Source: Lenzites betulinus
Lineage: Eukaryota; Basidiomycota; Agaricomycetes; Polyporales; Polyporaceae
Length of the DNA stretch: 64,000 nt
Direction of reading: 5' to 3'
Assembly: GCA_022264855.1 (NCBI GenBank)
Contig: JABYQU010000019.1
Location: 526,941-590,940 of the forward strand
In this document: in pieces, positions 15,940 to 58,130 of the stretch
Position numbering within the stretch: position 1 is the stretch's first letter
Layout of the letters: each line of letters opens with the position of its first letter
Translations under genes and position numbers: made by a program
Notes under the pieces: model-generated
Seen by the model: only the letters and a program-made list of their open reading frames with translations
Database searches by the model: none
Told to the model about the DNA's origin: nothing

Positions 15940-18730
15940 TCAACTATCAACGAGCGACAAAAGCCTTGAAGGAAGCTCGGCGTGCAACTGGGGGTCATCG
16001 GTCAGTACACTAGCGATGGACTGTTTAATCAGGGCACAGAACTCCTCCCAGAATTTACTCGGCGCGTCGTCCTCCGTGGGGCGATGTGACCGGATATCAT
16101 CGGAGGGCATAACCGTGAGCTTGAATGTGACAGCGCTCCATTCCTTCATTAAATGCTTTCTGGTGACTCGGATATTCCCAAAGTACGCGCGCAAGTCATC
16201 CAGGAGCTCGAGTCCCAGCTTGCCCCATGATTCCTTTGGTTCGATGTTTTCTGGCCAATGCTCCCATGTTAGAAGACAGTGTTTCTCCTTCGCGCACCTA
16301 TCCATGTCATCTTTGGTCCACAATGCAAAAGTCTCTGGCAAGGAATCCAAGCGTTTTCCATCCTTGTAGCAAGAAAGAGCCCAGAGAAGGATATAGAACA
16401 AGGACTCGAGGTCGTGTCGATAAAGATGCCGCACTTCACCCCTAAGTGCCGCCGGGGTGAGACGTTCGATCGCCATAAAGGGTACCGTGCCGGTCATTTC
16501 AATGCCCGTGTGCGTCTGGGGTAGTGTAGTGTCGATTGCGAGATCCCAGTCGTTCAACACCGCGTAGATAGTGTCGCCGCGGGTCCGATACATGAGATTG
16601 TCCAAGCTCAGGTCCTGGTGATGGATGCCGTTCATCCAGTTGAGGTAGTGGGCTGTCCAAAGAATCAGTCAACACTTACAGTAGAAGACGGTATGGAACG
16701 TACCCTCCGCGCACTGAAACCAGGCGTCGATGAATACGTCGCCGGATAGTCTCTTCAGCGGCTTCAGGCGGTCCATAGTAATCAACCGAAGCACACGGTA
16801 GACTTCGACCTCCGGGCCATCTGGCCCCCCAATGCGGCGGGTGCGGAGTGGGATACCCAGCTGGCGTCGTACGGTGGCCGTATTGTACCGGTCGTACTGC
16901 TTCTCGTCCACGACAATCGGCATGTGGTCCATAATCTTCCGATTGCCTTTTGCACGGTCAATAGCCTTTTGGATCATCGCACCCTCTAACTCCCGGGTGC
17001 AATCTTGCCAAGACAGCTTGGTGACTGTTTCTTCGTTTAGCGGATTCTCAGGATCGAAGCCGAGATATGTAGATTTGACGACGTATGAGCCCCTGCCTTT
17101 CAGACCCAAGGACCTGTACAGCTTCTCGCCTGTCTGTACCTTGACGTCGTGGTTGCAAACACCCCTGATAGTTGTATGCTTGGGACACTCGCGATCCTTC
17201 TTCTGGTCTATGAGCGCTTTGATGCTGCCCAGGTCAAAGTCGGGAACAATGCCCCAATCTTCAGCGTTGAAGCGCTGTAGCGCAAAGAGCATGGCGAGGA
17301 AACGAGGAAGGTCTGTAAGGAAATCAAGTCCAGTGGTCTGTATCGCTCCTTCATGGTCGTACCACCAAACATGGATAACGGAATCTAGATTGTGGTCAGT
17401 TTTGTTGTTCTCATTTCGCAGTTTGATTCACAAACCAAAAATGACCATGCCGATCGCGTGAGAGATCGCTGGTGCACGCGACAGCATTTCAGCGCCATAC
17501 AAGGCTGCTTGTATGGCCGGGGGCGGCCTGTCCTTGTTGATCTCCTGCTGCACGGGTGCGGTCGCAACCATGTCCTCGTTGTGCACCGGCGGAAGTTGGT
17601 CAGCTTTCTCTTGGGCGTTTCGTAGTTTAGCCACAGCACGCTCGTCTGATAAATGAGATGAATAAGTTATGTCAATAAACATAGCAGGCCGCTCACCTGG
17701 AGGCGGATGAGTTTTTTTGGCCCGCTTTGCCGCTTTGGGGGGTTGCGGCGGCGTTGTCTTGGTTGGTCGCACCATTGTCTCAGAGTTGATATCCATCACA
17801 GTGTAGTGTGACTGGAGAGACATTTCATATTCGCTTGGGGCCGAGTCCAACTCTCCCTTCACCACCTTGAACTCCAAAATGGCCAATATATCATGCCACG
17901 TGTGTTGCCCCGGGGGCGTTTGGGACGCCTGGTACATCAGATCCTTCTCATCGTAGATGTTATCATGCATTCTACTCAGAGCAGCCCGCGATGTCAGGAT
18001 GATGTCAGGTTTCCGCTTCGTCGTCAAGTCTGGTAAGTCGCCGGTTCCACTTGTGTACACACCGGAAATCTCCTTATCTGTATTTCGGACAAAACGAATA
18101 TCAAACTCGTGTGAGGAGCGATATGAGCAACCATCGACGCAAAGTTGTGCCAGGCGCGACAGTGCCCAATTGAAGGTTTGCACAAAGGGCTCGTAACGTT
18201 GGTCTTCTTTGTGAGCCTTCTTGCAGCTGTCGTAGAAAGTTGTTCAAAATGAGCATGTATATGCCATGGTGAGACGTATCATGGCTGTATGCGCGCTTGG
18301 AATGCGCCACTGTTGCAGATAGACAGCAACGCGCAGAGGGTTTTCTCCAGGCGCTCGTCATCGTCGAGCACGGGATCATTATCCACACGCCCTAGAACAA
18401 ACTTCAGGAATGTGTCGAAGTTGCACGTGGCGTGCTCTTTGAGATCTCGAGCAATCCAGGGGTAGACCTGGGGCACCCTGTACATATAGCAGTCTCAGAA
18501 GGAAACATTCGTTTAGGGCAAGACTGATGAGCTCACCGAGGGTCGGTGAAGCCACCACTGGCCGTAAAGCTGCCAGACCCTGTGCTCTTGGGTGTGGCCT
18601 CTAGAGTCAAGGCTGCTAGCGTCGTGGTAGTCTGTTTGACCGGCGTGCTCGGCTGCTCCTGCCAGTGCTCGGCCGCAATGGCGGCACCAGCCTGAGCCTG
18701 ATCATCGCTGACGCGACGTTTGGGAGGCAT
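15940..18730 (-). CDS. FunK1 fungal-specific protein kinase, copy A (possibly disabled)
   Basis: Member of the fungus-specific kinase-like FunK1 group (Pkinase_fungal), expanded in Agaricomycetes; substrates are unknown. ATG 18730 starts MPPKRRVSDDQAQAG. Later exons carry KEHATCNFDTFLKFVLG, DSVIHVWWYDHEGAIQTTGLD and the N-lobe region VVDEKQYDRYNTATVRRQLG. The C-lobe has GIHHQDLSLDNLMYR and LNDWDLAID. The catalytic Asp of the HRD loop is kept but Arg is replaced by Gln (HQD), and DFG is written DWD. The exon 2 frame meets TGA at 18281-18279 before any GT donor equivalent to that of copies B and D, so this copy may be a pseudogene or use an unusual splice. The other junctions are canonical. Confidence 0.75.
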
Positions 18731-19767: not shown

Positions 19768-22429
19768 TCAACTATCAACGAGTGACAAAAGCCTCGAAGG
19801 AAGCTCGGCGTGCAACTGGGGGTCGTCGGTCAATACACTAGCGATGGACCATTTGATCAGGGCACAGAACTCCTCCCAGAATTTACTCGGCGTGTCGTCC
19901 TCCGTGGGGCGATGTGACCGGATATCATCGGAGGGCATAACCGTGAGCTTGAATGTGGCAGCGCTCCATTCCTTCATTAAATGCTTTCTGGTGACTCGGA
20001 TATTCCCAAAGTATGCGCGCAAGACATCCAGGAGCTCGAGTCCCAGCTTGCCCCATGATTCCTTTGGTTCGATGTCGTCTGGCCAATACTCCCATGTTAG
20101 AAGACAGTGTTTCTCCTTCGCGCACCTATCCATGTCATCTTTGGTCCACAATGCAAAAGTCTCTGGCAAGGAATCCAAGCGTTTTCCATCCTTGTAGCAA
20201 GAAAGAGCCCAGAGAAGGATATAGAACAAGGACTCGAGGTCGTGTCGATAAAGATGCTGCACCTCGCCCCGAAGTGCCGCCGGGGTGAGACGGTCGATTG
20301 CCATGAAAGGCACCGTGCCTGTCATCTCAAGGCCTGTGTGCGTCTGGGGTAGTGTGGTGTCGATTGCGAGATCCCAGTCGTTCAGAACTGCGTAGATGGT
20401 GTCGCCGCGGGTCCGATACATGAGATTCTCCAAGCTCAGGTCCTGGTGATGGATGCCGTTCATCCAGTTGAGGTAGTGGACTGGCAGAGGAATTAGTCAA
20501 CATGTCTAGTCTATGATGATATGGAGCCCACCTTCTGCGCACTGAAACCAGGCGTCGATGAATGCGTCGCCGGATAGTCGCGTCAGCGGTGCGAGACGCT
20601 CCGTGGTAATCAAACGAGGCACACGGTACGACTCGACCTCCGCACCGTCTGGCTCTCCAACGCGACGGGTGCGAAGGGGAATACCCAGCTGGCGTCGTAC
20701 GGTGGCCGTGGTGTACCGGTCGTACTGCGTCTCGTCCACCACGATCGGCATGTGGTCTATAATCTTCCGATTGCCGTTTGCGCGCTCGATGGCCTTCTGG
20801 ATTATCATACCCTCCGAATCCCGGCTGCAATCTTGCCACGACAGCTTGGTGACCGTCTCTTCGTCCAGCGGATCCTCCGGATCGAATCGGGGATATCTAG
20901 ACGCGAGGACGCAGGACCCCCTGCCTGTCAGACCGAAGACGCGGTACAGTGGTGCACCCGTCGCAACCCTGACGTCGCGATTCCGAACACCCCGGATGGT
21001 CGTTTCCTCCGGGCATACACGGGGCTTTGTCTGGTCTGTGAGTGCCTCGATGATGCCCAGGTCGAAGTCGGGAATGAGACCCCAGTCTTCGGCGTTGAAC
21101 CGCTGCAGCGCAAAAAGAAGAGCGAGGAAGCGGGGAAGATCAGAGAGGAAGTCGAGGCCTGTCGTCTGTATCGCTCCTTCGCGGTCGTACCACCAGACAT
21201 GCACAACGGAGTCTACATTCGGGGTCAGTTCGTTCACGCGTTTTAGCAGTCCAATGTACGCACCAAATACCACCATACTGATTGCGTGAGAGATCGCTGG
21301 TGTACGCGACATCATCTCAGTGCCATACACGGCCGTCTGCATTGCCACAGGCGGTCTGTCGGTGGTGTACTCCTCCTGTCCGGAATCCGTCTCCTTGTTG
21401 CGCATCGACGGGTGTTGTTCAGCGCGCTCCTGGTAGCTTCGCAGCTTGCGCATAATCTCCTCGTCTGGTGGATAAATCAGCAAATATGCCGGGGGAATAT
21501 GGGATGGCTCACTGAGATGAGGGCGAAGGCTGTTGCTTGGTTTTGCGGCTTCGGAGGATTCGGGCAACCCCGTCGTGATCAGTGGCGTCTTCGCCTCCGA
21601 GTATATATTCATAGCGCCGTAAACCGACTGGAGAGACGTCCCATAGGCATCCGGGGCCTCCAGCGCATCCTCGACGAGCTTGAACTCCACTGCTGCCAAC
21701 GTATCGTGCCATGAGTAGTGCCGCGGCGACCGTCGCTGCGCCGCGTCCAGAAGCTCTGACTCCGCGAGGGGCCGGCCATGCATTCGACTCAGGGCGGCCA
21801 GGGAAGTCAAAATGACCTCGGGCCTCCGCTTTACGGTTAAAACTCGCACGTCCTCGTCAGGACCGCCTGGACCCATGCCGGCGATTTCCATCTCTGGTGG
21901 GTCCGCATTCCTACAGAATCGGATGCGGATGTCGTCTGGGGGGCGATACATGCAATCCTGCACGCGAAGGTCATCCAGGCACGATAGCGCTGTGTTGAAT
22001 GCCTCGACGAATGGGCCGTAGCGGCCTCGTTCGTTATGAGCCGGTTCGCAGCTGCCATACATAATTAGTTACGATAGGCGGGTAACTCGAGCTGTGGCGT
22101 ACTATTTCCTCGCGAGAGTTTGGAAATATTCGTGGTTACAGATGATCAGCAAGGCCCGGAGGGTATTCTCGAGACGTTCGTCAGGATGAAGCGTAGACCC
22201 GCGATCGACCTTCGCAAGCACGAACTTGAGGAACGTATCAAATGTGGATGTGGCGTGCTCCTTCATGTCGTGACAGATTGAGGGATAGGCCTTTCTAATC
22301 CTGTAGAGAGATATAAGAACACGGTTTGTTGGAAGACTGGCGGGCTTACAGTGCGGAAGAAGAGCCGTCGCTGGGCGTATAGCTGCGGGAGTCCTCACTC
22401 TGGAATCTGGCTTCAAGCTCGGAGGTCAT
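19768..22429 (-). CDS. FunK1 fungal-specific protein kinase, copy B (intact)
   Basis: Six exons (22429-22350, 22300-22103, 22051-21513, 21464-21264, 21212-20532, 20480-19768) close in frame at 2412 nt, 803 residues. ATG starts MTSELEARFQSEDSRSYTPS. Landmarks in order: STFDTFLKFVLAKVDRG, RPEVILTSLAALSRMHG, DSVVHVWWYDREGAIQTTGL, IVVDETQYDRYTTATVRRQL, GIHHQDLSLENLMYR and LNDWDLAID. HQD and DWD replace HRD and DFG while both aspartates remain, so catalysis is possible but unproven. The last exon is almost identical to that of copy A, while the N-terminal exons are closer to copy D. This patchwork suggests gene conversion or mosaic duplication. Upstream sequence also matches copy D. Confidence 0.88.
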
Positions 22430-28187: not shown

Positions 28188-29362
28188 TCAGCTATTAACG
28201 AGTGACAAAATGCTCGAAGGAAGCTCGGTGGCATGCAGCTCGGGGTATTTAAGTAATGCCGTAGCGATGGACTGCTTTACCAGGGCATGAAATTCCTCCC
28301 AGAATTTACTCGGCTCGTCGTCCTCCGTGGGGGGGAGTGGTATGTTGTGATCGGACTTCTCGAAGATTTCGGCATCATACTAGTCCCGAAGTCTGTTGTT
28401 GTTGGCCTGTATGAGATCCACGAAGTATCTGCGCAAGGCTTGCACGAGCTTGCGTCCCAACTTGCCCCAGGATTGCATCGGACGAAGGTCGAGTGGCCAC
28501 CGAGGTTCCCACAGTAACTCAATTTTCTTGCGCCTGCACTCCGCCATGGTATCTTGTATCCAGCATGCAAGACTCTCTGGCAAGGAATCCAGGCGTCGAC
28601 TGTTCCTGTAGCAGCAAAGAGCCCATACAAGAATGTAGAAGAAGGATTCGAGGTCGTGTCGATAAAAATGCTGCACCTCACCCCTAAGTGCCGCCGGGGT
28701 GAGACGGTCGATAGCCATGAAAGGCACCGTGCCTGTGATCTCAAAACCGGTGTGCATCTGGGGCACTGTAACATCGATTGCGAGATCCCAGTCGTTCAGG
28801 ACTGCGTAGATCGTGTTGCCGCGGGTCCGATACATGAGATTGTCCAAATTCAGGTCCTGGTAATGGATGCCGTTGACCCAGTTGAAGTAGTGGACTGGCG
28901 GAGGAATTAGTCAACATGTCTAGTCTATGATGATATGGAGCCCACCTTCTGCGCACTGAAACCAGGCGTCGATGAATGCGTCGCCGGATAGTCGCGTCAG
29001 CGGTGCGAGACGCTCCGTGGTAATCAAACGAGGCACACGGTACGACTCGACCTCCGCACCGTATGGCCCTCCAACGCGACGGGTGCGGAGAGGGATACCC
29101 AGCTGGCGTCGTACGGTGGCCGTAGTGTACCGGTCGTACTGCTTCTCGTCCACCACGATCGCGAAACGTGTCGAATGTGCATGTCGCGTGCTTCTTCTTG
29201 TCGTGACAGATCGAGGGGTAAACCTCTCGAATGCTGTAGAGGGGTGTAAGAAAACGGTTTGTGGGAAGACTGGAGTTCTTACAGAGCACATGAAGAGCCG
29301 TCACTGGGCGCATAGCTGGGGGAGTCCTGACTCTGGGACATGGCTTTGAACTCGGAGGGCAT
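28188..29362 (-). pseudogene. FunK1 kinase copy C (internally deleted pseudogene)
   Basis: Exon 1 from ATG 29362 (MPSEFKAMSQSQDSPSYAPS) and the start of exon 2 (VYPSICHDKKKHATCTFDTF) match copies B and D. At about 29158-29162 the sequence jumps straight to IVVDEKQYDRYTTATVRRQL of the kinase core, dropping what is about 1.5 kb in copy D. The junction is out of frame. The rest follows with GIHYQDLNLDNLMYR and LNDWDLAIDV, then an in-frame TAG at 28382-28380, about 64 codons before the ancestral end. Beyond it the frame is open to the usual LSLVNS stop at 28188. Two independent lesions make a working kinase very unlikely. Confidence 0.9.
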
Positions 29363-35997: not shown

Positions 35998-38685
35998 ATG
36001 AGCTCCGAGCCTGCAGCCACGTCCTACAATATTGAGGACTCCCAGGACTATAGACCCCGCGACGGCTCTTCGTGTGCTCTGTAAGAACCCCAGTCTTCTC
36101 ACAAACCGTATTCTTACACCCCTTTACAGCATTCGAGAGGTCTACCCCTCGATCTGTCACGACATGAAGAAGCACACGACATGCACATTCGACACATTTC
36201 TCAAATTCGTGCTTGCGAAGGTCGATCGCGGGTCTACGCTCGACGCCGACGAGCGTCTCGAAAACACCCTCCAGGCATTGCTGATCATCTGCAACCACGA
36301 GTATTTCCAAACGCTCGTCAAGAGATAGTATGTCCCAACTCGAACTGCGTGCTCACTGAGCCTAACTATACATATGATAGCTGCGAGCCGGTTCATAGTG
36401 AACGAGCCCGCTACGGCCCATTCGTCGAGACATTCAACACGGCGCTCTCGTGCCTAGAAGACCTTCGCGTACAGGACTGTGCGTATCGCCGCCCAGACGA
36501 CATCCGCATGCGATTCTGCAGGAATGCGGACGCACCCGAGATGGAGATCTACGCCATGGGTTTAGGCCGTCCTGACGACGACAGGCGAGTTTTCGTCGTG
36601 AAGCGGCGACCCGAGGTCATCCTGACTTCCACGGCCGCCCTGTGTCGAATGTATGGCCGCCGGCCCCTCGCGGAGTCAGAGCTTCGGGACGCGGCGCAGC
36701 GACGGTCCCCGCAGCACTACTCATGGCATGATATGCTGGCAGCAGTGGAGTTCAAGCTCGTCGAGGATGCGCTGGAGGCCCCGGACGCCCCGGATGCCTA
36801 TGGGACGTCTCTCCAGTCGGTTTACGGGGCCATGGATGTATACTCGGAGGCGAAGACGCCACTGATCCCGACGGGGCCGTCTGAATCCTCCGAAGCGGCA
36901 ACGCGAAACAAGAACTCACGCCCTCCTCGGAGTGAGCAGCCCCCCACGCCCGCCTGCATAGTTTGCTGATCCGTGATCTATTCATTAGACGCAGAGGTTA
37001 TGCGCAAGCTGCGAAGCTACCAGGAGAATGCTCAACAACACCCGTCGGTGCTCAGCCAGGATATGGACACTGTTCAGGAGGAGTACGCGCTCTACCGACC
37101 GCCTCCAGCAATGCAGACAGCCGTGTATGGCACTGAGATGCTGTCGCGTGCACCAGCCATCTCTCACGCGATTAGCATGGTGATATTCGGTGCGTATATT
37201 GGACTGCGAAAGAGCAGGGACGCACTGACCTCAGATGTAGACTCCGTTGTGCACGTCTGGTGGTACGACCGCGAAGGAGCGATACAGACGGCAGGCCTCG
37301 ACTTCCTCTCTGACCTTCCCCGCTTCCTCGCTCTTCTCTTCGCGCTGCAGCGGTTCAACGCCGAAGACTGGGGTCTCATTCCCGACTTCGACCTGGGCAT
37401 CATCGAGGCACTCACAGACCAGACGAAGCCCCGTACGTGCCCTCAGGAAACGACGATCAGGGGTGCTCGCAATCGCGCTGTCAGGGTACAGACGGGTTTG
37501 CTGCCGGTGTACAAGACCTTGTGTCTGCAAGGCAAGGCGACCTGGGTATTCGCATCCAGATGTCCCGGGTTCAATCCTGAAGATCCGCTGAACGATCTGA
37601 CGGTCACCAAGCTGTCTTGGCAAGATTGCACCCGGGATTCGGAGACTGCGATCATCCAGAAGGCCATCGACCGCGCAAACAGCAATCGGATGATTATAGA
37701 CCACATGCCGATCGTGGTGGACGAGACGCAGTACGACCGGTACACCACGGCCACCGTACGACGCCAGCTGGGTATCCCTCTCCGCACCCGTCGCCTTGGA
37801 GGTCCAGACGGTGCGGAGGTCGAGTCGTACCGTGTGCTTCGTTTGATTACCACGCAGCGTCTCGCACCGCTGACGCGACTATCCGGCGACGTATTCATCG
37901 ACGCCTGGTTTCAGTGCGCAGAAGGTGGGCTCCATACCAGCACAGACTAGACATATTGACTCATTCCTCTGCCAGTCCACTACCTCAACTGGATGAATGG
38001 CATCCATCACCAGGATCTGAGTTTGGACAACCTCATGTATCGGACCCGCGGCGACACCATCTACGCGGTGTTGAACGACTGGGATCTCGCAATCGACACT
38101 ACACTACCCCAGACGCACACGGGCCTTGAGATGACAGGCACGGTGCCTTTCATGGCAATCCACCGTCTCATTCCGGCGGCACTTCGGGGTGAGGTGCAGC
38201 ATCTTTATCGACACGACCTCGAGTCCTTGTTCTATATCCTTCTCTGGGCTCTTTCTTGCTACGAGGACGGAAAACGCTTGGATTCCTTGCCGGAGACTTT
38301 TGCATCGTGGATCAAAGATGATATGAACAGGTGCGCGAGGGACAAATACTGGCTTCTCGCATGGGAGTATTGGCCAAACGACATCAAACAAAAGGAATCA
38401 TGGGGCAAGCTGGGACCCAAGCTCCTGGATGTCTTGCGCAAGTACTTCTGCAATATCCTAGTCACCAGAAAGGGTTTGGTGGATGAATGGAACACTACTA
38501 GATTCATGGCTATGCCCTCCGATGATATCCAGTCACATCGCCCCCCCACGGAGGACGACGCGCCGAGTAAATTCTGGGAGGAGTTCTGTGCCCTGATCAA
38601 ATGGTCCATCGCTAGTGTATTGACCGACGACCCCCAGTTGCACGCCGAGCTTTCTTCGAGGCTTTTGTCACTCGTTGATAGTTGA
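35998..38685 (+). CDS. FunK1 fungal-specific protein kinase, copy D (intact)
   Basis: Six exons (35998-36080, 36130-36327, 36381-36931, 36989-37189, 37241-37924, 37976-38685) close in frame at 2427 nt, 808 residues. Landmarks: CTFDTFLKFVLAKVDRGS, RPEVILTSTAALCRMYG, DSVVHVWWYDREGAIQTAGL, VVDETQYDRYTTATVRRQLG, GIHHQDLSLDNLMYR, LNDWDLAID and ESLFYILLWALSCYEDG. As in copies A and B, the HRD Arg is Gln and the DFG motif is DWD, with both aspartates kept. The acceptor of intron 4 was set at GATGTAG because the same site exists in copy B. The gene lies on the plus strand, divergent from Hel2. Function and targets are unknown. Confidence 0.9.
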
Positions 38686-39615: not shown

Positions 39616-40105
39616 TTACCCCCCCCTTAAGCCTGACCTTCCATGGGCAGGTGCACCTCGTTAGGGTCCACCCAGGGGGTCGGGCTGTCTCCAGCGTCGA
39701 GGGAGATGATATCGCCCTGGTAGTGAAGGACCCGAGGGTCGAGCATGGGGATGTGGTCGTCCTGGTAGTGAAGAACCCGTGGGTCGATCGTTTGCACCGG
39801 CTGATGATTGGCGATGTTCTCAGCAGGCGCGTAGGGCTGTTGGGCCGATGCTTGTGCGAGGAGAGCGAGGGCGGCAGGGGTGCCGAAGGTGATGTTGTGG
39901 GTGCGTCCGCGGAGCCAGTCAAGGAAGTGCTGGGTGGCACGTTCGCCTGCTGTGAGGGAGGTGTCCTCGGATTCGCTACCGTCGTAGATGGTTTCCAGGC
40001 TAGGGAGACACCAGCTGTGGTAGTCGTAATGTATCATAAACCGGTCATGCGCCCGCGCAGCATTACATTATAAACCGTTCGTGTTCGTAATGTATTACGA
40101 ACAGC

Positions 40106-40180
40106 CGGGGGCGCCAGTGCTGCCCTCCGGGACCTGCCTAATATGGTAGGCAGGCCCGGGGGACAGTGCTGGCGCCCCCG
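40106..40180. repeat. GC-rich hairpin of the left arm, element 1
   Basis: CGGGGGCGCCAG...CCTGCCTA pairs with TAGGCAGG...CTGGCGCCCCCG around the loop ATATGG, giving a stem of roughly 33 bp with few mismatches. Counterparts lie at about 42395-42471, 54626-54700 and 56915-56990. Confidence 0.85.
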
Positions 40181-41247
40181 GGAGCCTCTAATCTGTTATC
40201 TCTTAATAGATTATGTCTTATCTCATCTCCCTGGGGCTTTTCCGCGCGCGCCTGTGCCTCCCTCGCAGCCACATCCCGATTAGGCAGGTCTGCCTCAGCC
40301 ACCCTCCCCTGCCTGTCTGCTTCGCCTCTCCCTCGCTCTAATCTTGTCCGATTCGCTTCCGAAGTAGCGCGTTTTACTCAGGTATGACTACGCTACAATC
40401 TCGCGCAAACGGAACAGGAATTGGGTAAGTACTGATTGTTCTACAGTTGATACAGTAAAAGTGCAAAGGAGGCGACAAAGAACGGGCGATATCTCGTCCG
40501 TTCTTTGTCGCCTCGGCGCGCAGATTACGTTCCCATAACGAGGGAGCTCAGCGCATTCGAACGAGCCCGCATGCGCGCGGAACGGCCCACGGACAGCGGA
40601 GCTGCGCTCCGCCCACCCCGGGGGGAGTGCAGCTCCTCCTCCTCCATGCATATTTCACTTGTTTTTGCTCATATTTGCTCTATAAAGTTGCTAATACATT
40701 TCATGTTATAGGTACAACATTTTACGAGCAAATTACGGCGGAGAAACACGTCCAGGAGGGTGGGTAGTAGTCCAGCTACTACCCACCTTCCTCGACGCAT
40801 ATCTCGGTCATTTCGGCGCGTATCGCCGCGCGGAAGGCACCGTAAGAAAGCGGCACAATGCAGCGTTCTGACGGTGCCTTCTGCGCGGCGAACCGATTGC
40901 AGAGTCCTTCGCAGTATGATATTCTGTGTTTCATACTGTGAAACCACATATTTTGACAATAGATTCATGTATACCGATTCAAATGACATTCCGTTTGCTC
41001 AGGAATATGAGTATAGGCTATAGCTATGTGTACACCACATTATAGGGGAATTGGAGTTGGTTCAGGTGTATGATCTGCTTATCTAGGACCACAATGTACC
41101 TCTTTGCCGCGCAAGATCCGCCAGGCCGATTGTCATAAAAGCTGGCACGATTAATACGACATAGAAACGCTACCTGTATACAAATTTGCAGGGGAAACGG
41201 ACGGGAACGGACGGAGATACTTTGTTATCAGTGCACAGATGCAGGTA

Positions 41248-41280
41248 GCCGCCCACCGTCTTAAGACGGTCTCGGGCAGC
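41248..41280. repeat. Central hairpin of element 1
   Basis: GCCGCCCACCGTCTTAAGAC followed by GGTCTCGGGCAGC folds on itself about a CTTAAG centre. The counterpart in element 2 (55766-55798) ends GGGCGGC and closes the stem more fully. It marks the middle of the element. Confidence 0.75.
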
Positions 41281-43480
41281 TTCTGCAAGGTAGTAAGTAC
41301 TGTACATCACTATACATCACTGTAGGATACTATGTAGCACATTAACTTGAGTTCTTCGCCAATTTACATGTTTCTGGGCTTGTTTGAAAGCTGTATACGT
41401 TGGCTATCGATGTATACGCTTCACAGATGTATTGGAGGTCTAACTAGCTATGTAGGGACGAAATGAGTGTGCAAAACTCGCTGTTTTGCTCAGTTTTGCT
41501 CAGTCTGTGGTTTGTGCAGCACATATGAGTATAAATCATCATTGAATATGTATATACACTGCATAATATGTTAATAGACATGTACATAGCATTTCAGAAT
41601 ACCTGTGGAGAGATAGAAGAGGGGGTGAGCAACTGGGGGAGGAGGAAGAGCACATATGGATAGCGACGCGCCAAATGGTCGTATCGTCGCGCATAAGGCA
41701 CCGACAGAAAGCTGCAATTCGCCGCTTTCTGGCGGTGCCTTTTGCGCGGCGATACGCGCAGAAACGGCAGCGCTATGTGTCGAGGAAGGTGGGTAGTAGT
41801 GGGACTACTACCCACCCTCCTCGACGTGTCTGTGGGCTGTAGTTCGTTAAGAAAACGTTATAACTGTGGTGTAAAATGTATTAGTGAATGAATAAAGCAA
41901 GTGCGAGGAAAAAAGAATGAAATACAAGCACAGGAGGAGGAGCTGCACTCCCCCCGGGGTGGGCGGAGCGCAGCTCCACCGTCAGTCGGCCGATTCGCGC
42001 GCATGCGGGCTCGTTCGAACGCGCTGAGCTCCCTCGTTATGGGAAAGTAATCTGCGCGCCGAGGCGACAAAGAACGGACGAGATATCGCCCGTTCTTTGT
42101 CGCCTATTGTACCCTGTTACTGTATGTAGTGTAGCGCAGTCATTACTTACCGTATTTCCGTTCCGTTTGCGCGCGATTGTAGCGTGAGCTCGCCCGAGTA
42201 AGACGCGCTAGTTTTGAGGCAAATCGGACGAGAATTGCGCGAGGGAGAGGCGAAGCAGGCAGGCAGGGGAGGGAGGACAAGAGCACACCTGCCTAATCGG
42301 GATGTGGCTGCGAGGGAGGCACAGGCGCGCGCGGGAAAGTACCAGGCAGATTAGATATGGCCATTATCTACGTTAGATAAGAGATTAGAGGCTTCCGGGG
42401 GCGCCAGCACTGTCCCCCGGGCCTGCCTACCATATTAGGCAGGTCCGGAGGGCAGCGCTGGCGCCCCCGGCTGCTCATAATACATTACGAACACGAACGG
42501 TTTACAATGTAATGCTGCGCGGGCACATGAACGGTTCGTAATACATTAGAACTACAACAGGGGCTGAGGGAGAGATTGGGATGGGGTCGTCGGCCAACCC
42601 TGAGGGGATGTGGAGGGGAACGGGGTGTCGACGCGGGAGGTGGAGAGTCGTTCCTCCAGCGGTCGGCGTGGAGGTTCGTTCTCCTTGTCGTCATCCCAGT
42701 TGCCGACGGGGGCGCCCCACGAGTTGGTGCTGGGGGTGGAGAAGGGGGCGTTGTTGGCGATGAGGTGGTCCCATGCGTCCCGCTCCCGGTGTGCCAGGAG
42801 GTCGGTGTTGTAGTCTGAGCGACCCGGACCTCGGAATGCTGGGACCGGATGGACGGCGTTGTAGCCTGTCTGGCGACGAGAGAGGATGCGCTCGAACTCG
42901 GGTATTGTCGAGATGCCGGGGATTATTTGGCCCATGCTCCGCTCCGCGATCTGGTAGGTCCTGGTGAGCGCCGTGTCCAGCGCAGCCCGGACCTCGCAGT
43001 GAAATTGATGGTCGGGGCCCGGGTGAGTCATGACGAACTGTCGCATGAGGTGGAGGGCTGGGGTTAGGTCGGCTGCCGCCCGGTAGATGTCTGCGGACCC
43101 AATCAGGGTTGGGGAGCGGGTCCAGAGGAGGGTATTGGCTTCCACTCGGAGGTCGGGGTGGACCAGGGTCCATCCCACCCGATCCATGAAGGATCCGTCG
43201 GTGAAGGCCGAGGAGGGAAGGCGGGGTAGGTGGTCGTATGTTGCCGGGGTTTGGTGTATCCACGTCGGGATGCGGAGCTGGGAAACTCCCGGCAGAAGGA
43301 GGGGGGGTCCGGTGGATGTCCTGTGAGTTGGACCGGGGGTCGGTGAGGAGTTGGAGCGGTTGCGGTAGCGGCGAGAGCGGCGAGAGCGAGGCATGGTCAA
43401 AGAAGGGGTCGATGTCCTCGAGAGAGGAGAGGGTGAATGGGAGAGGAGAGAGGGGATCCAGGGTGTCGAGTCTGAGGGCT

Positions 43481-44451
43481 TCAGGCCATCTTGTGCCTCT
43501 TCTTATAGGCCTGGAGGATTGTTTGTGAATGTTTGAGGTCCTTATCTCGGAGCCATTCGTTTTCATGACTTGGTCGTCCTTTCCATGTGACTAGGTACTG
43601 GATGCCTCCTCGTGCCGGCTTCCGGTGATTGATTATGGCTTCGACTTCCCATTCTTCAGAGCCTTCTACTATCTCCGGTGGAGGGGACACGTAATTGGGG
43701 CCATGCTCCGGTGTGGTGCGATAGTGGGAAATTAAGGACGTGTGGAACACGGGGTGCACCCTCCATGTGGATGGAAGTCGGAGCTTGACTGTTGCCGGGC
43801 CCATGACTTGGTCGATGACAAAAGGACCTTCCCTTTTTGGGGCTAATTTCCGGTTCGGATATGGGAGTGAGAGGTTGGTAGATTCTAAGAAGACCTTGTC
43901 CCCCTTCTTGAAGGTCACATTGCCTGCTGCACGTCTTTTCGCCATTGTGGCGGCGGCTTTATTGTGTGCGGCTAGAGCGTTCTCCCGCCATTCCCGAAGC
44001 TTGTCTAGACGTTCCTCCGTACTGGGGTGCTTGGGTTTAGGGTGCACGGTCCCAATAGCTTTAGGTTGATACCCCATTAGAAGTTCGAATGGGCTTTTGC
44101 CGGTGACAGAGTGGGTTCGTTGGTTGTGGGCAAATTCGAATTGGGGTAGCAGCGTGCTCCAGGTGTCCGGATAGTTCCCACAGTAGATACGAAGGGCAAC
44201 CTCAATTTCTTGGATGGTTCGCTCTGATTGTCCATCCGTTTGTGGGTGATGCGCTGTACTGAGAGATTGGCCAATCCCCAAGATTCGATTGAGTTCTTGA
44301 TATGCCTTTGAGATAAACTGAGGTCCTCGGTCGGATATGATTCGGTCCGGAAGGCCATATCGGTTGTATACGTCTCGCATGAGCATGTGCGCAGTGTCCA
44401 TTGCGTTGGTTTCTTTTGTGCAGGGGGATAGGACAATAGCCTTGGTGACGT
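43481..44451 (-). pseudogene. Chromovirus integrase, catalytic core truncated, with chromodomain
   Basis: The frame enters at NVTKAIVLSPCTKETNA, just past the expected first catalytic Asp, and continues with LPDRIISDRGPQFIS (second Asp) and HPQTDGQSERTIQEIE (Glu). A GPY/F-like segment RKLAPKREGPFVI follows. The C-terminal chromodomain carries VEAIINHRKPARGGIQYLVT and WKGRPSHENEWL. Chromodomains of this type usually target integration to heterochromatin. The 41 residues that precede NVTK in the open frame (up to 44575) come from the neighbouring inverted repeat and are not part of the enzyme. The first catalytic Asp is lost, so it is dead. Confidence 0.9.
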
Positions 44452-44580
44452 TGATGCACTGGAACCTGCTATAACAGCAGGATAGAGGGCGCGGCCGAGA
44501 GCCTAGGGGGCGAGGCCGGACGTAGTGCGGGGAGGGAAGGATAATGCCTGCGAGTAAGGGCCGGTTTCCCTTCACTGGGC

Positions 44581-44812
44581 TTCCACGAAGCGTCGCAGGT
44601 CGCGGTCGTCCCGCTATCGCAGAGGGAAGGTGGGTACGCGGTCCGTCGGTTCTATCGCAACCGGTCGCAGTGCCAGCGAACTGGTAAGGAGGCGTGGACG
44701 GGGCAGTCGCGGTGGTCAGGGGGAAGCCGTGATCGCAGTCGCAAGTTCGCGTCGCAGCTCGCGGTCGCAGTTCGCAGTTCGCGGTCGCAGTCGCAGTCGC
44801 AGTCGGTACCGG
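44581..44812 (+). repeat. Subterminal TCGCA array
   Basis: Twelve TCGCA pentamers, mostly as (G/A)TCGCAG, all in the same orientation within 232 bp, some in direct tandem (CAGTCGCAGTCGCAGTCGG). The right end has the mirror-image array of TGCGA at about 59815-60040. Confidence 0.85.
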
Positions 44813-44874
44813 GGCCGGTCTATGAGATCTGAGGGGTGGGGATTGCTTGCCTTCTGAAAACTACGGAGCACGGA

Positions 44875-53871: not shown

Positions 53872-54528
53872 CTAATCAGATCCTCTACTCGCGGGCTTGG
53901 GGGTCGGTTGGGCCCGAAAGCGAGCGCGACCGCGGGTTACGGTCGGGATAGTCGTGATCTGTCCTGTGTTCGGACACTTGATCGTGATCGTCTGGTCCTC
54001 GTTCTCGAAATTCTTGACGACGCTCTTGGTCAGGACGTCGAACGGTCGCCCTAGTAGGAGGTCATAGGCCGCGTTCTGTATCACATGTACTTGGAGGTAC
54101 AGTACAATCTCTGCGACCACAAAGGGGACGTTCCGCACGAGCCCCAGCGACTGGTCGACCTCTCCGTTCGCAGACTGCATATTGAGGCGAATGGTAGGGT
54201 CGTACGAGAGTCCTAACGCGTGGCAGACGTGCTCGGACATCGCAATGATCATACATCCCGGGTCGACGATAGCCTCGACATACTCTTTCGAGTCTACCAG
54301 CCCCACGATAGAGCGTAGGGTGTGCGACTCCTTTGCGACCGTAAGGGAAGCCTTGTCCGGTCCCGGCGCGGTCTTGCACAAGTATACTTCGTAAGGGTCC
54401 GGCAGTATGAAGCCTCCAGGTTCAAGCGGGTCGCCGCTGCAGGATAGCTGTCGATGACTTCGTTTACGTCTGCGAATGCGACCGTACGAGTCGCAGGGGG
54501 GACTCTCTTTGGTGTGACTGCCTCCCGG
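53872..54528 (-). pseudogene. Retropepsin-like protease domain of the gypsy element
   Basis: The frame codes GFILPDPYEVYLCKTAPGPD, then EYVEAIVDPGCMIIAMSEHV with the D-P-G form of the active site that I know from this basidiomycete family. LNMQSANGEVDQSLGLVRNV and AYDLLLGRPFDVLTKSVVKN follow. The sequence next to hairpin element 2 (about 54460-54528) is in another frame and reads VNEVIDSYPAA-like text, so a frameshift lies near 54450. Confidence 0.82.
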
Positions 54529-57082
54529 CACCAGCTGATGTACTCCTGATGTATCAGGAACCGTTTAGGACTCCGCGCCGCTTTACATCAGGAACAGGAA
54601 GTGTTCCTGATGTATCATGGGCGGCCGGGAGCGCCAGCGCTGCCCTCCGGGACCTGCCTAATATGGTAGGCAGGCCCGGGGGACAGCGCTGGTGCCCCCG
54701 GGAGTCTCTAATCCGTTATCTAATGCAGATAATGGCATTATCTAATCTCCCCCGTACTTTCCCGCGCGCCTGTGCCTCCCTCGCAGCCACATCCCGATTA
54801 GGTAGGTCTGCCTCAGCCAGCCACCCCTGCCTGCTTGCCCGCCCTATACCTCGCTCAGTTCTCGGCCGTTTTGCTTCAAAACTAGCGCGTTTTACTCGGG
54901 GGAACCTACGCTACAATCGCGCGCAAACGAAACGGGAATCCGGTAAGTACTGACCGTGCTACAGTGGATACAGTAACAGGGTAAAAGCGGCGACAAAGAA
55001 CGGACAATATCTCGTCCGTTCTTTGTCGCCTCGGCGTGCGAATTGCTTTCCCATCACGAGGGAGTTCAGCGCGTTCGAAAGAGCCCTTATGCACGCGAAT
55101 TGGCGCACGGACGGTGGAGCTGCGCTCCGCCCACCCCGGGAGGAGTGCAGCTCCTCCTCCTCTGCGCATATTTCATTCGATTTGGCTCGAGTTTGTTTCC
55201 TTCAGTAACTAATACATTATATTACACAGGAAAGACGTTTTAAAGTCAACGCAGGGCCCAGAAACTCGTCGAGGAGGGTGGGTAGTAGTGTGACTACTAC
55301 CCACCTTCCTCGATGTATATCTCTGCCAGTTCTGCGCGTATCGCTGCGCAGAAGGCACCGTCAGAACGCGGCGCAACACAGCGTTCTAACGGTGCCCTTT
55401 GCGCGTCGATCCGACCGCAGCTACCCTCGCAATACGGCATCCTGTGTTCCATACAGTGTAATAACATGCTGTAGCGATAGAACCATGTAGAGTCCTTCAA
55501 ATTCAATTTTGTTTCCTTCCTCATATCAGTGCTGGCCGTCGCTATGCGTACACCGGAGTATAGGACAATCGGAGGCCATCCCGATGTGTAATCTACTTAT
55601 CTATGACCAGAATGTATACCCTTGCTGCGCACGATCCGCGAAACCGATTGTGATCAACGCCCGCATGCGTATTGCTACATAGAACCGCTAGATGTATACA
55701 GAATCTCAAGGGAAACGGACGAGAACTGACGGAGATATTGTGTTATCACTGCAGACATGCAGGTAGCCGCCCACCGTCTTAAGACGGTCTCGGGCGGCTT
55801 CAGCAAGTCTGTATGTATAGCACAGTACATACAGACCCTGTAGAACACTTTGTAGAGCAGTAATTCGAGTTCTTCGCCGATTTTCACGTTCTTGGGCTCG
55901 TCTGAAAGCTGTATACGACTGCTATCTAGCCACCTATTTCATGAATATATTTGTGGTCTCAGTAGCTCTGTATCAGCTAACTTAGTGTGCACTAGTTGCA
56001 GTTTTCGAGTTTTTAATAACTTCCTGTGTTTTTTGAGGACAGATGGATCTCCATTGCTATATAGGAGGTAGATATAGTACATTAGGAATCAAATAACATG
56101 TATGCAGTGTTCCAGAGTACCTGTGAAGAGATGGAAGGGGGGTGAGCAGCTGGGGGGGGGAGGAGGAGCAGAGAGGGATAGCGACGCGCTGCGTGGTCGT
56201 ATCGCCGCGCAAAAGGCAACGCCAGAGAGCAGCATTCCGCCGCTTTCTGGCGTTGCCTTTTGCGCGGCGATACGCGCCGAAACGGCAGTGCTATGCGTCG
56301 AGGAAGGTGGGTAGTATTTCACTACTACCCACCCTCCTCGACGCGCTTCTGGGCCGTAGTTTGTTCGTAAAACGTACCATCTGTGTGCTACAATGTATTA
56401 GTAGCTAAAAGAAACAAAGACGAGCAAAAAAGAACGAACAATGAGCACAGGAGGAGGAGCTGCACTCCCCCTGGGGTGGGCGGAGCGCAGCTCCACCGTC
56501 CGTCGGCCGTTTCGCGCGCATGCGGGCTCGTTCGAACGGCAGTGATTCCCTCCTGATGGGAAAGCAGTTCGTGCGCAGAGGCGACAAAGAACGAACGAGA
56601 TATCGCCCGTTCTTTGTCGCCTCTTTTACCTTTTTACTGTATGTACTGTAGGGAAGTCATTACTTACCGGATTTCCGTTCCGTTTGCGCGCGATTGTAGC
56701 GTATTAGCACCCGAGTAAGACGCGCCAATTTTGAAGTGAATCGGCCGAGAAATGAGCGAAGGAGAAGCAGAGTAAGCAGGCATGGGTGGATGGCTGAGGC
56801 AGACCTGCCTAATCGGGATGTGGCTGAGAGGGAGACAGAGGCGCGCGCAGGAAAGCACAGGGAGATGAGATAAGCACACAATCTACATTAGATAAGAGAT
56901 AAGAGCCTCCCGGGGGCGCCAGCACTGTCCCCCGGGCCTGCCTACCATATTAGGCAGGTCCCGGAGGGCAGCGCTGGCGCTCCCGGCCGCCCGTGATACA
57001 TCAGGAACACTTCCTGTTCCTGATGTAAAGCGGCGCGGAGTCCTAAACGGTTCCTGATACATCAGAACTACAACAGGGGCTG
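54529..57082. mobile_element. Hairpin-rich inverted-arm element, copy 2 (no coding sequence)
   Basis: The element is 2554 bp, flanked by the direct repeat CTCCCGG (54522-54528 and 57083-57089), within the gag-protease region of the gypsy set. Ends CACCAGCTG and CAGGGGCTG equal those of copy 1. Arms of about 900 bp (54529-55425 and 56185-57082) are inverted around a centre homologous to that of copy 1. The same ordered hairpins are present: TTCCTG-ATGTAT-CAGGAA ends, GC-rich stem 54626-54700, the GGCGACAAAGAACGG stem near 54989-55032, the GTGGGTAGTAG stem near 55270-55312, and a central stem 55766-55798. Sequence differs from copy 1 by many substitutions, yet stems are kept. No coding potential is seen. 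Confidence 0.9.
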
Positions 57083-58130
57083 CTCCCGGAAACGCGCGCT
57101 GATCTCGGGCGCGACCGATAGCAGCTCCTCGGTGGACAGGGTGATGACCGGTGTTTTCATAGTGCGTGCAAAGATTTCCTCTGCGATCTTGGTCTGATGT
57201 ACTGGGATCTGGTTCCTGCACGCGGGCTCTCCTGGCTTCGGTTTCGGTGGCGGTGCCCCAAAGTTGCGTGCGGTCGGTGGCACGTAAGTCGCATCGCGTG
57301 ACTTTGCGAACCGGTGCTCGGGTACCCCTCCAGTGTTCGTGGCCTTCTTCTCGGAGGTGTTCGACGTTAGGGGCCGAGCACTCTCGCGCTCCTGCGACCT
57401 GTCGCGACTGGGCGCCGCCCTAAACATGGTGTCCTGCGTCATTCCGCTGTGTCCCGGCTGGCTCGCCGGATAGCTCGACAGTCCCGTGTTTGCGTCGCGC
57501 GACATTGCGACCGGCGTTCGCAAAGTTGGGCTGTTGCCCGGTAGTGGTACGCGCGGGCCTGTCTGAACAGGAGGGGGGGGTAGCGGTCGCGGGTCACGCG
57601 ATCCGCTTGGGGGCGGAGTCCCAGGTCGTGGCCGTTGGGTAGGTCGCCGATAGGAGGGTACCTCTACTCCGTCGAAGCGTTCTTTGGTCCGTCGCAGAGC
57701 GTAAAGCTCGTACTCCAGCTGAGTGATCCGGTCCTCCGTCGCAAGCGCAAAGCCACTCGCCGTGTACGGGTCCTCTGCGATCTCGAACACCATCTGCGAC
57801 GCCGGCCGCGACGCGAGCTGATTGGGGTTGCGACAATGCCATTCGTAGACTCGATCTCGCATGGTGAGGCCGTTGAAGCCGTGCATAAACCTGGGCACAT
57901 ACATCCCGTTGGGTAGGCAGACCCGTCCTTCGTGGTTCCGGATACACTGCCCTGCGTCGACATCTTCTTGGACAAAGGGGCAGTTCCGTAGCATGCAGCC
58001 GGCATTACCGCAATAGTGGCAGAAGCCGTCGTTCTGGTCCTGCGTCGCGTAGCTCCCTGACAAGTGATTCTGTTGCGACTGTGCGGCAGGACCAGGGGCG
58101 TTTCCTCGCTCGTTCACAGACTGTGCAAGC
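57083..58130 (-). pseudogene. Gag of the gypsy element, with zinc knuckle, cut by hairpin element 2
   Basis: The frame reads LAQSVNERGNAPGPAAQSQQ and the Cys-rich knuckle DGFCHYCGNAGCMLRNCPF. GQCIRNHEGRVCLPNGMYVP and RDRVYEWHCRNPNQLASRPA follow, then a Pro/Arg-rich region and VITLSTEELLSVAPEISARF. This gag type is common in Agaricomycete gypsy elements. The apparent C-terminus QPLL-stop is encoded by the end of hairpin element 2, not by gag. Upstream it is fused to the inner end of the right inverted repeat at 58131. Confidence 0.8.

Follow-up and report, generated by a model that had tools for sequence, protein, structure and literature searches.

Foldback transposons such as Tm1, the plant Mutator-like foldbacks and Galileo have long inverted arms, internal structure and little coding capacity. 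Galileo produces target site duplications (TSDs) of 7 bp, and the Mutator-type TSD is 9 bp. Miniature inverted-repeat transposable elements (MITEs) are usually under 800 bp and are deletion derivatives. Here we analyze a hairpin-built element of 2558 bp, copy A1, in a 64-kb window of the Lenzites betulinus genome (the window is the whole stretch of DNA studied, positions 526941-590940 of contig C20, in a genome of 37.4 Mb and 108 contigs). Judged by its sequence, the element is very probably a non-autonomous, foldback-type, Kyakuja-like cut-and-paste transposon of the KDZ superfamily that is moved by a KDZ transposase in trans.

The Kyakuja transposons of Agaricomycetes were described by Kojima in 2025 and, in the sections of PMC12730594 used here, have a 7-bp TSD and CA..TG ends. 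The same sections describe Kyakuja as the only TET-bearing transposons found in Polyporales, two Laccaria families of Kyakuja without terminal inverted repeats (TIRs), and hAT7 families of rust fungi with a 7-bp TSD. In Cryptococcus neoformans, KDZ1-KDZ3 have been shown to move; their TIRs are 139-241 bp and their TSDs 8 bp (KDZ1) or 4-8 bp, according to the portion of PMC12810828 drawn on here. No hairpin-built or non-autonomous KDZ element appeared in the titles and abstract openings among the literature matches listed, and the word hairpin is absent from the main text of the Kyakuja paper (PMC12730594).

Results

A precise insertion and its family

Element A1 starts with CACCAGCTG at 40009 and is closed by CAGGGGCTG at 42566, with AGGGAGA on both sides, so that its ends lie exactly where the original prediction, made from the letters of the window, had placed them.

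40009..42566, + strand: copy A1 of the non-autonomous hairpin element over its full 2558 bp; a 99.8% identical copy, C30:18405-20962, has a different TSD
40002..40008, unstranded: left copy of the 7-bp target duplication AGGGAGA, found as a single copy at the empty site L089
42567..42573, unstranded: right copy of the 7-bp target duplication AGGGAGA

The genome contains the sequence flanking A1 at four loci. One of them, C42:350566 (L089), aligns with 409/409 bp of the left flank and 400/400 bp of the right flank, both at 98.8%, and these alignments have exactly 7 bp in common, AGGGAGA, which is present once. A second empty copy of the flank (L090; 88.8% and 96.5%) has the identical 7-bp overlap. 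A1 inserted precisely and with a 7-bp duplication, and the empty site is the strongest proof of this insertion.

Genome searches with the element ends and arms were used to find the family; the copy numbers are lower bounds, since 40 of 72 candidates were scored in one search and 40 of 119 in another. The comparison covered 18 complete copies of types A/B (2548-2564 bp) and, from the distant subfamily C, six copies of 2406-2468 bp that are 46-55% identical to A/B. The proposed transposon family with 7-bp duplications was borne out by these copies together with the empty site: an exact TSD flanks 22 of the 24, measuring 7 bp in 21 and 8 bp in A7. The left TSD of one copy equaled the right TSD of another in 0/552 comparisons. 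BLAST of 36 flanks of 400 bp each, taken from the 18 A/B copies (the six subfamily C flanks being too short to include), gave no matches between different copies. The TSD of B8 is less telling because this insertion sits in a short local repeat. Near-identical copies occupy different sites (B1/B2 with 0 substitutions, A1/A2 with 5), which indicates that several diverged lineages moved recently. The second copy predicted in the window was confirmed as B10:

54529..57082, + strand: second window copy, B10, with type B ends, 2554 bp; TSD CTCCCGG at 54522-54528 and 57083-57089

Excluded from the comparison were incomplete A/B rows (C50:292270, C99:2064, C50:325070, C50:331422, C64:1065, C19:28798, C55:23832, C19:21130, C42:340065, C65:545 and C82:113) and the element C98:296803, which has two left ends. 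Also left out were C76:427063-429616, whose coordinates are those of a complete copy but whose full sequence was not retrieved, L086 of subfamily C, for which no right end was found, and those subfamily C copies whose full sequence was not retrieved.

Transposase-bearing elements with related ends

The search for a longer relative with a transposase, which the original prediction had proposed, led to C22:87335-101694, a 14.36-kb element bounded by paired ends and by the 7-bp TSD CACAAGA on both sides. A1 and A6 have their outer 92-94 bp in common with it (left ends 90% and 98% identical, right ends 89% and 92%), and B10, C1 and C3 match it over 70-99 bp at 69-74%; for these five hairpin elements, compared at E 1e-3, the matches are limited to the outer ~100 bp. 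Its predicted transposase gene, spliced by eye, comprises 1090 codons in nine exons with 8 GT-AG introns, and this gene model reads open. KDZ (PF18758) was above the Pfam cut-off in two exons (1.3e-31 and 6.9e-21) and CxC2 (PF18803) was found at 1.2e-38, the cysteine cluster lying N-terminal to the KDZ domain; PF18758 is also above cut-off in the L. betulinus protein P0008. The predicted protein has 1120 relatives, and those of the 120 listed that have names are fungal CxC2/KDZ proteins. The gene adjoining it, hand-spliced, has 644 relatives; the 120 listed include three with the name 2OGFeDO JBP1/TET and another three with PF12851. Pfam returned no family for this TET-like frame or for its hand-spliced protein, and a solved-structure search with the frame returned nothing meaningful. 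The C22 element has TIRs of ~897 bp that are 89% identical. These long TIRs hold GC-rich tandem repeats of about 31-33 bp (L074 500-950, L075 6230-6600), which are unmatched in the five hairpin elements compared.

Two other elements of ~14 kb, C87:1688-15875 and C87:20955-35024, have 7-bp TSDs and KDZ matches inside, and over 67-71 bp their ends and those of one subfamily C copy are 91-93% identical. Genome-wide there are 77 KDZ matches, with pieces of one gene counted separately. Over module positions 18-95, compared for 7 of the 24 hairpin elements, identity is 86-95% between A and C22, 79-84% between C and C87, 71-79% between B and C87, and 68-69% between B and C22.

End modules and bodies are separable

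The sequence in common with the C22 element corresponds to a module at each end of A1.

40009..40103, + strand: left end module, type A, with a CAC terminus and three palindrome-type sites; 94 bp at 90% to the 14-kb KDZ element
42472..42566, - strand: right end module, type A, with CAGCCCCTGTTGTAG as its inward reading; 92 bp at 89% to the KDZ element

Each module has TRATGYATYA sites at 19 and 79-80, with an inverted half-site at 55 that the pattern misses in the A1 right end. Type A sites differ from those of C22 by no more than single letters (in A1 left and C22 right), B and C87 have identical direct sites, and C-type sites resemble those of C87 without being letter-identical (GCATC in C1, GTATC in C87). 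Read inward, every one of the 24 copies has one CAC tip and one CAG tip, by which the subfamily C copies were oriented.

Module and body identities were compared in 13 of the 18 A/B elements, near-identical copies having been removed. At module positions 18-95 and 2464-2541, type A elements have 92-93% identity to one another and type B elements 97-99%, as against 68-69% between A and B. For the bodies (181-2378), mean identity is 83% among A elements, 80% among B elements and 80% when A is compared with B; hairpin 1, beside the end module, is 94-97% identical whatever the end type. The difference between A and B ends near position 95 on both sides, which is the length in common with the KDZ element. 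On the body tree of all 18 copies the end type needs 3 changes (3-4 in bootstraps), forced by the starred branches, and a single A clade was rejected by the approximately unbiased (AU) test (p 0.00034). End type is nonetheless clustered on this tree, given a shuffled mean of 6.2-6.3 changes and only 4-5/500 shuffles as low; near-copies contribute to the clustering. When trees are built from three blocks of the body, end type has to change 2, 3 and 4 times, indicating that the bodies are mosaic. End type does not track body lineage as one clade, and ends and bodies are separable. The end modules may have been exchanged between lineages via recombination or gene conversion, although the direction, ends onto bodies or bodies recombining behind ends, cannot be told because the bodies are mosaic.

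Several unusual ends were also seen. The hairpin element C98:296803-299352 (L070, L071) has two CAC (left-type) ends and no TSD; it is probably the recombination product of two copies, and the lack of a TSD is expected if transposition needs one tip of each kind. Two more ends, at C34:138765 and C55:189575 (CAGCTGCTGTTGTAGGAATAATGTAT), are of a type absent from the studied elements and possibly belong to another KDZ family. At C98:82599-82686 (L080) lies a solitary end, 88 bp at 100% identity to subfamily C followed by divergent sequence, whose partner end was not found.

The hairpin body

The inverted arms of A1 (element positions 7-883 and 1676-2552) are ~877 bp long and 84% identical. As had been predicted, the body is built of hairpins and has no long reading frame: each arm consists of several separate hairpins, the longest ATG open reading frame (ORF) within A1 is 106 aa, and there is no evident gene. 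The palindromic center proposed in the original prediction does not hold: among the inverted pairs listed, none has both arms inside 40897-41678.

40105..40181, + strand: hairpin 1, left arm; better conserved than any other part of the body, at about 95% regardless of end type
42395..42470, - strand: hairpin 1, right arm
40469..40514, + strand: hairpin 2, left arm
42062..42105, - strand: hairpin 2, right arm
40591..40642, + strand: hairpin 3, left arm
41934..41985, - strand: hairpin 3, right arm; limits approximate
40741..40805, + strand: hairpin 4, left arm
41779..41825, - strand: hairpin 4, right arm
40823..40891, + strand: hairpin 5, left arm; helix with 9 of 14 pairs changed on both sides
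41680..41756, - strand: hairpin 5, right arm
40892..41675, unstranded: central spacer separating the inverted arms; the least conserved part, mean 74-79% between copies
40392..40445, + strand: conserved non-coding block, left arm, with a 5'-splice-like GTAAGT at 40425-40430; limits approximate, putative function
42130..42183, - strand: conserved block, right arm, with GTAAGT at 42150-42145 on the minus strand; limits approximate

Local folding of A1, with pairing limited to 130 nt, gave -993, compared with -745 +/- 16 in 8 mononucleotide shuffles, in which dinucleotides are not preserved. Conservation of pairing was assessed in arms from 12 of the 18 A/B and five of the six C elements (24 A/B arms and 10 C arms), and the structures came from the same alignments on which they were tested, which favors them. 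In A/B, pairing is present in 94.5% of cells across the 122 pairs of five helices, compared with 93.9 in shuffles. Fourteen of the 122 are changed on both sides, against 6.0 +/- 1.7 when shuffled (0/500 as high) and 3-6 when slid; nine of these are in helix 5, three in helix 4 and two in helix 1, and helices 2 and 3 have none in the 24 A/B arms. Further pair types, which are less telling, number 46 against 42.3 shuffled (20/500 as high). The signal in subfamily C is weaker, with 10 of 71 pairs changed on both sides against 6.1 +/- 1.8 shuffled (18/500 as high), and one slide (+3) likewise yields 10. In A/B, pairing is thus above the level of both shuffled and slid controls, chiefly owing to one helix; in C the excess is weak. 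A/B copies hold a length of 2548-2564 bp despite identities of 76-100%, and hairpin 2 is retained in C with the same CGATATCTCG core and a largely different stem. Together these results suggest that hairpin pairing is kept, at least in part, while the sequence changes, and are consistent with selection on the hairpins.

The best-kept internal block between A/B and C, CTACAATCGCGCGCAAACG...GGAATCCGGTAAGTACTGAC, lies downstream of a CT-rich stretch, and GTRAGTAMT occurs at the conserved block in 44/48 arms. In both arms this block resembles a promoter-proximal exon with a 5' splice site and an inward reading direction, and it is offered as a lead. The motif ACTAATACATT is ambiguous because it resembles a branch point and the type-A end palindrome alike. 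A search of Rfam gave 12 matches at E up to 0.1, all to microRNA precursor families and under their gathering scores, which we take as chance matches of GC-rich hairpins.

Surroundings of the copies

Minus-strand retroelement frames adjoin both hairpin copies of the window, with an aspartic protease at 53872-54564 and an integrase plus chromodomain at 43481-44860; the latter frame, beside A1, is on the same strand as the frames that flank A1. Reading frames at either A1 flank had no match in Pfam. Blocks at 16302-17120, 20130-20938, 28544-29161 and 36974-38506 are repeated in direct and inverted orientation, and the frame 36970-37950, within one of them, matches Pkinase_fungal (PF17667), so that a fungal kinase-like gene seems to have been copied inside the window. 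Elsewhere, hairpin copies lie near contig ends (C19:9451-34129, C64:1065, C65:545, C82:113, C99:2064, C106:1725-4282 and C50:6026-18814), perhaps reflecting repeat-rich DNA or assembly breaks caused by palindromes.

Discussion

The original prediction held up for the transposon family, its ends, its body and its second copy. Its view that no standard fungal superfamily fits did not, as the ends are common to a KDZ transposon and the Kyakuja described in December 2025 (in the parts of PMC12730594 used here) have 7-bp TSDs and CA..TG ends. The TSD is exactly 7 bp in 21 of 24 hairpin elements and in all three autonomous candidates, CA..TG termini are present in 24/24, and the host belongs to the Polyporales. 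The C22 partner encodes a predicted KDZ transposase, which the window element itself lacks, and a TET/JBP gene as judged from its relatives. We file the element as KDZ and call it Kyakuja-like because the Kyakuja traits fit except for the TIRs; it differs from the described Kyakuja in being non-autonomous. An 8-bp TSD, as in Zisupton/Dileera, was seen in one of 24 copies. The C22 element shares a KDZ transposase and long TIRs with KDZ1-KDZ3, but those are coding elements of ~9-11 kb with CxC1 rather than CxC2 and with other TSD lengths (PMC12810828, same portion). The inverted arms and small coding capacity of A1 place it in the foldback structural class, although the known foldbacks Tm1, Mutator-like and Galileo belong to other transposase superfamilies. 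A MITE was ruled out by the length of 2.41-2.56 kb and a body without a match to the C22 partner.

Several observations weigh against this reading. The two Laccaria families have no TIRs, a trait that may or may not be defining, whereas those of C22 are ~897 bp (PMC12730594, as above). For type B ends, no element with a transposase was found, the 31 exact B-motif matches all lying at ends of known hairpin copies (placed by coordinates or fetched sequence; a 32nd match has 3 mismatches), and with B modules only 68-69% identical to C22 and 71-79% to C87 the B partner is left without a candidate. The likeness of C ends to C87 is weaker than that of A ends to C22. Outside its ends the hairpin body does not match C22, and the hairpin element is therefore no simple deletion derivative of it. 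Two of the 24 copies lack an exact TSD, C5 with 1/7 bases mismatched and C6 with a 4-bp match only. The original prediction had regarded copies without duplications, or with shared extended flanks, as signs of a segment duplicated along with its host retroelement; of the 24 copies, C5 and C6 are those without an exact duplication, and the 18 A/B copies have no flanking sequence in common. We found no point in support of such a duplicated segment, and the unrelated A/B flanks, the TSDs and the empty site refute it. It is also very improbable that the element is a foldback of another superfamily with 7-bp TSDs whose likeness to KDZ ends arose by coincidence or convergence. Galileo offers a precedent for a 7-bp TSD in a foldback, and so does hAT7 of rust fungi, with its hAT transposase, for the TSD alone (PMC12730594, as above), but the A-type ends are 89-98% identical to those of an element with a KDZ transposase, and no P or hAT transposase was present in the 10 C22 frames scanned, the genome itself not having been searched for P or hAT.

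How ends and bodies came to be mismatched is less settled. The A and B bodies could have recombined with no exchange of end modules, their mosaic structure explaining the mismatch, and the 2, 3 and 4 changes needed by the three body blocks, the clustering of end type on the tree and the slightly higher identity of bodies within A (83%, against 80% between A and B) are all in keeping with this. We consider it rather unlikely, as the A/B difference stops at about position 95, the length in common with the KDZ element; the practical outcome, separable ends and bodies, would be identical and the direction cannot be told. A stronger contender, to which we give somewhat less than an even chance, is that mutation rather than selection keeps the hairpins: template switching during replication perfects imperfect palindromes and would leave compensating changes without function. 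That pairs changed on both sides are few, concentrate in helix 5 and are lacking from A/B helices 2 and 3, and that shuffles and one slide can equal the count in C, agrees with such a process. The constant length of A/B copies across 76-100% identity and the persistence of hairpin 2 in C, with its core intact in a largely different stem, argue instead for selection on structure.

We propose that the KDZ transposase of a large Kyakuja-type element most likely moves the hairpin element. The ~14-kb autonomous elements of the same genome would supply the transposase, which may bind the palindrome-type sites, three in each ~95-bp end module, excise the hairpin element and reinsert it by a 7-bp staggered cut. 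The two modules of an element have distinct tips, CAC.. on one and CAG.. on the other. Exchange of end modules would let body lineages change partner, and the hairpin body would be kept for its structure. That end modules are common to an element with an open transposase gene model points to mobilization in trans. On a bolder and doubtful extension of this model, the body may outlive any one partner by swapping its ~95-bp ends among KDZ transposases, and its arms might each yield an inward, spliced, hairpin-rich helper RNA, for example one feeding or evading RNA silencing.

Non-autonomous transposons are usually viewed as deletion copies bound to one transposase. Here, the recognition ends borne by related bodies of near-constant length through 20-50% sequence change vary from copy to copy, and the same genome contains candidate partners for two of the three kinds of end, so that both partner-switching and the role of the structure are directly testable. 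With these elements the KDZ superfamily would gain a class of non-autonomous members whose left and right ends are defined. If the bolder extension of the model is true, non-coding hairpin lineages would be persistent parasites of transposons and not short-lived deletion products.

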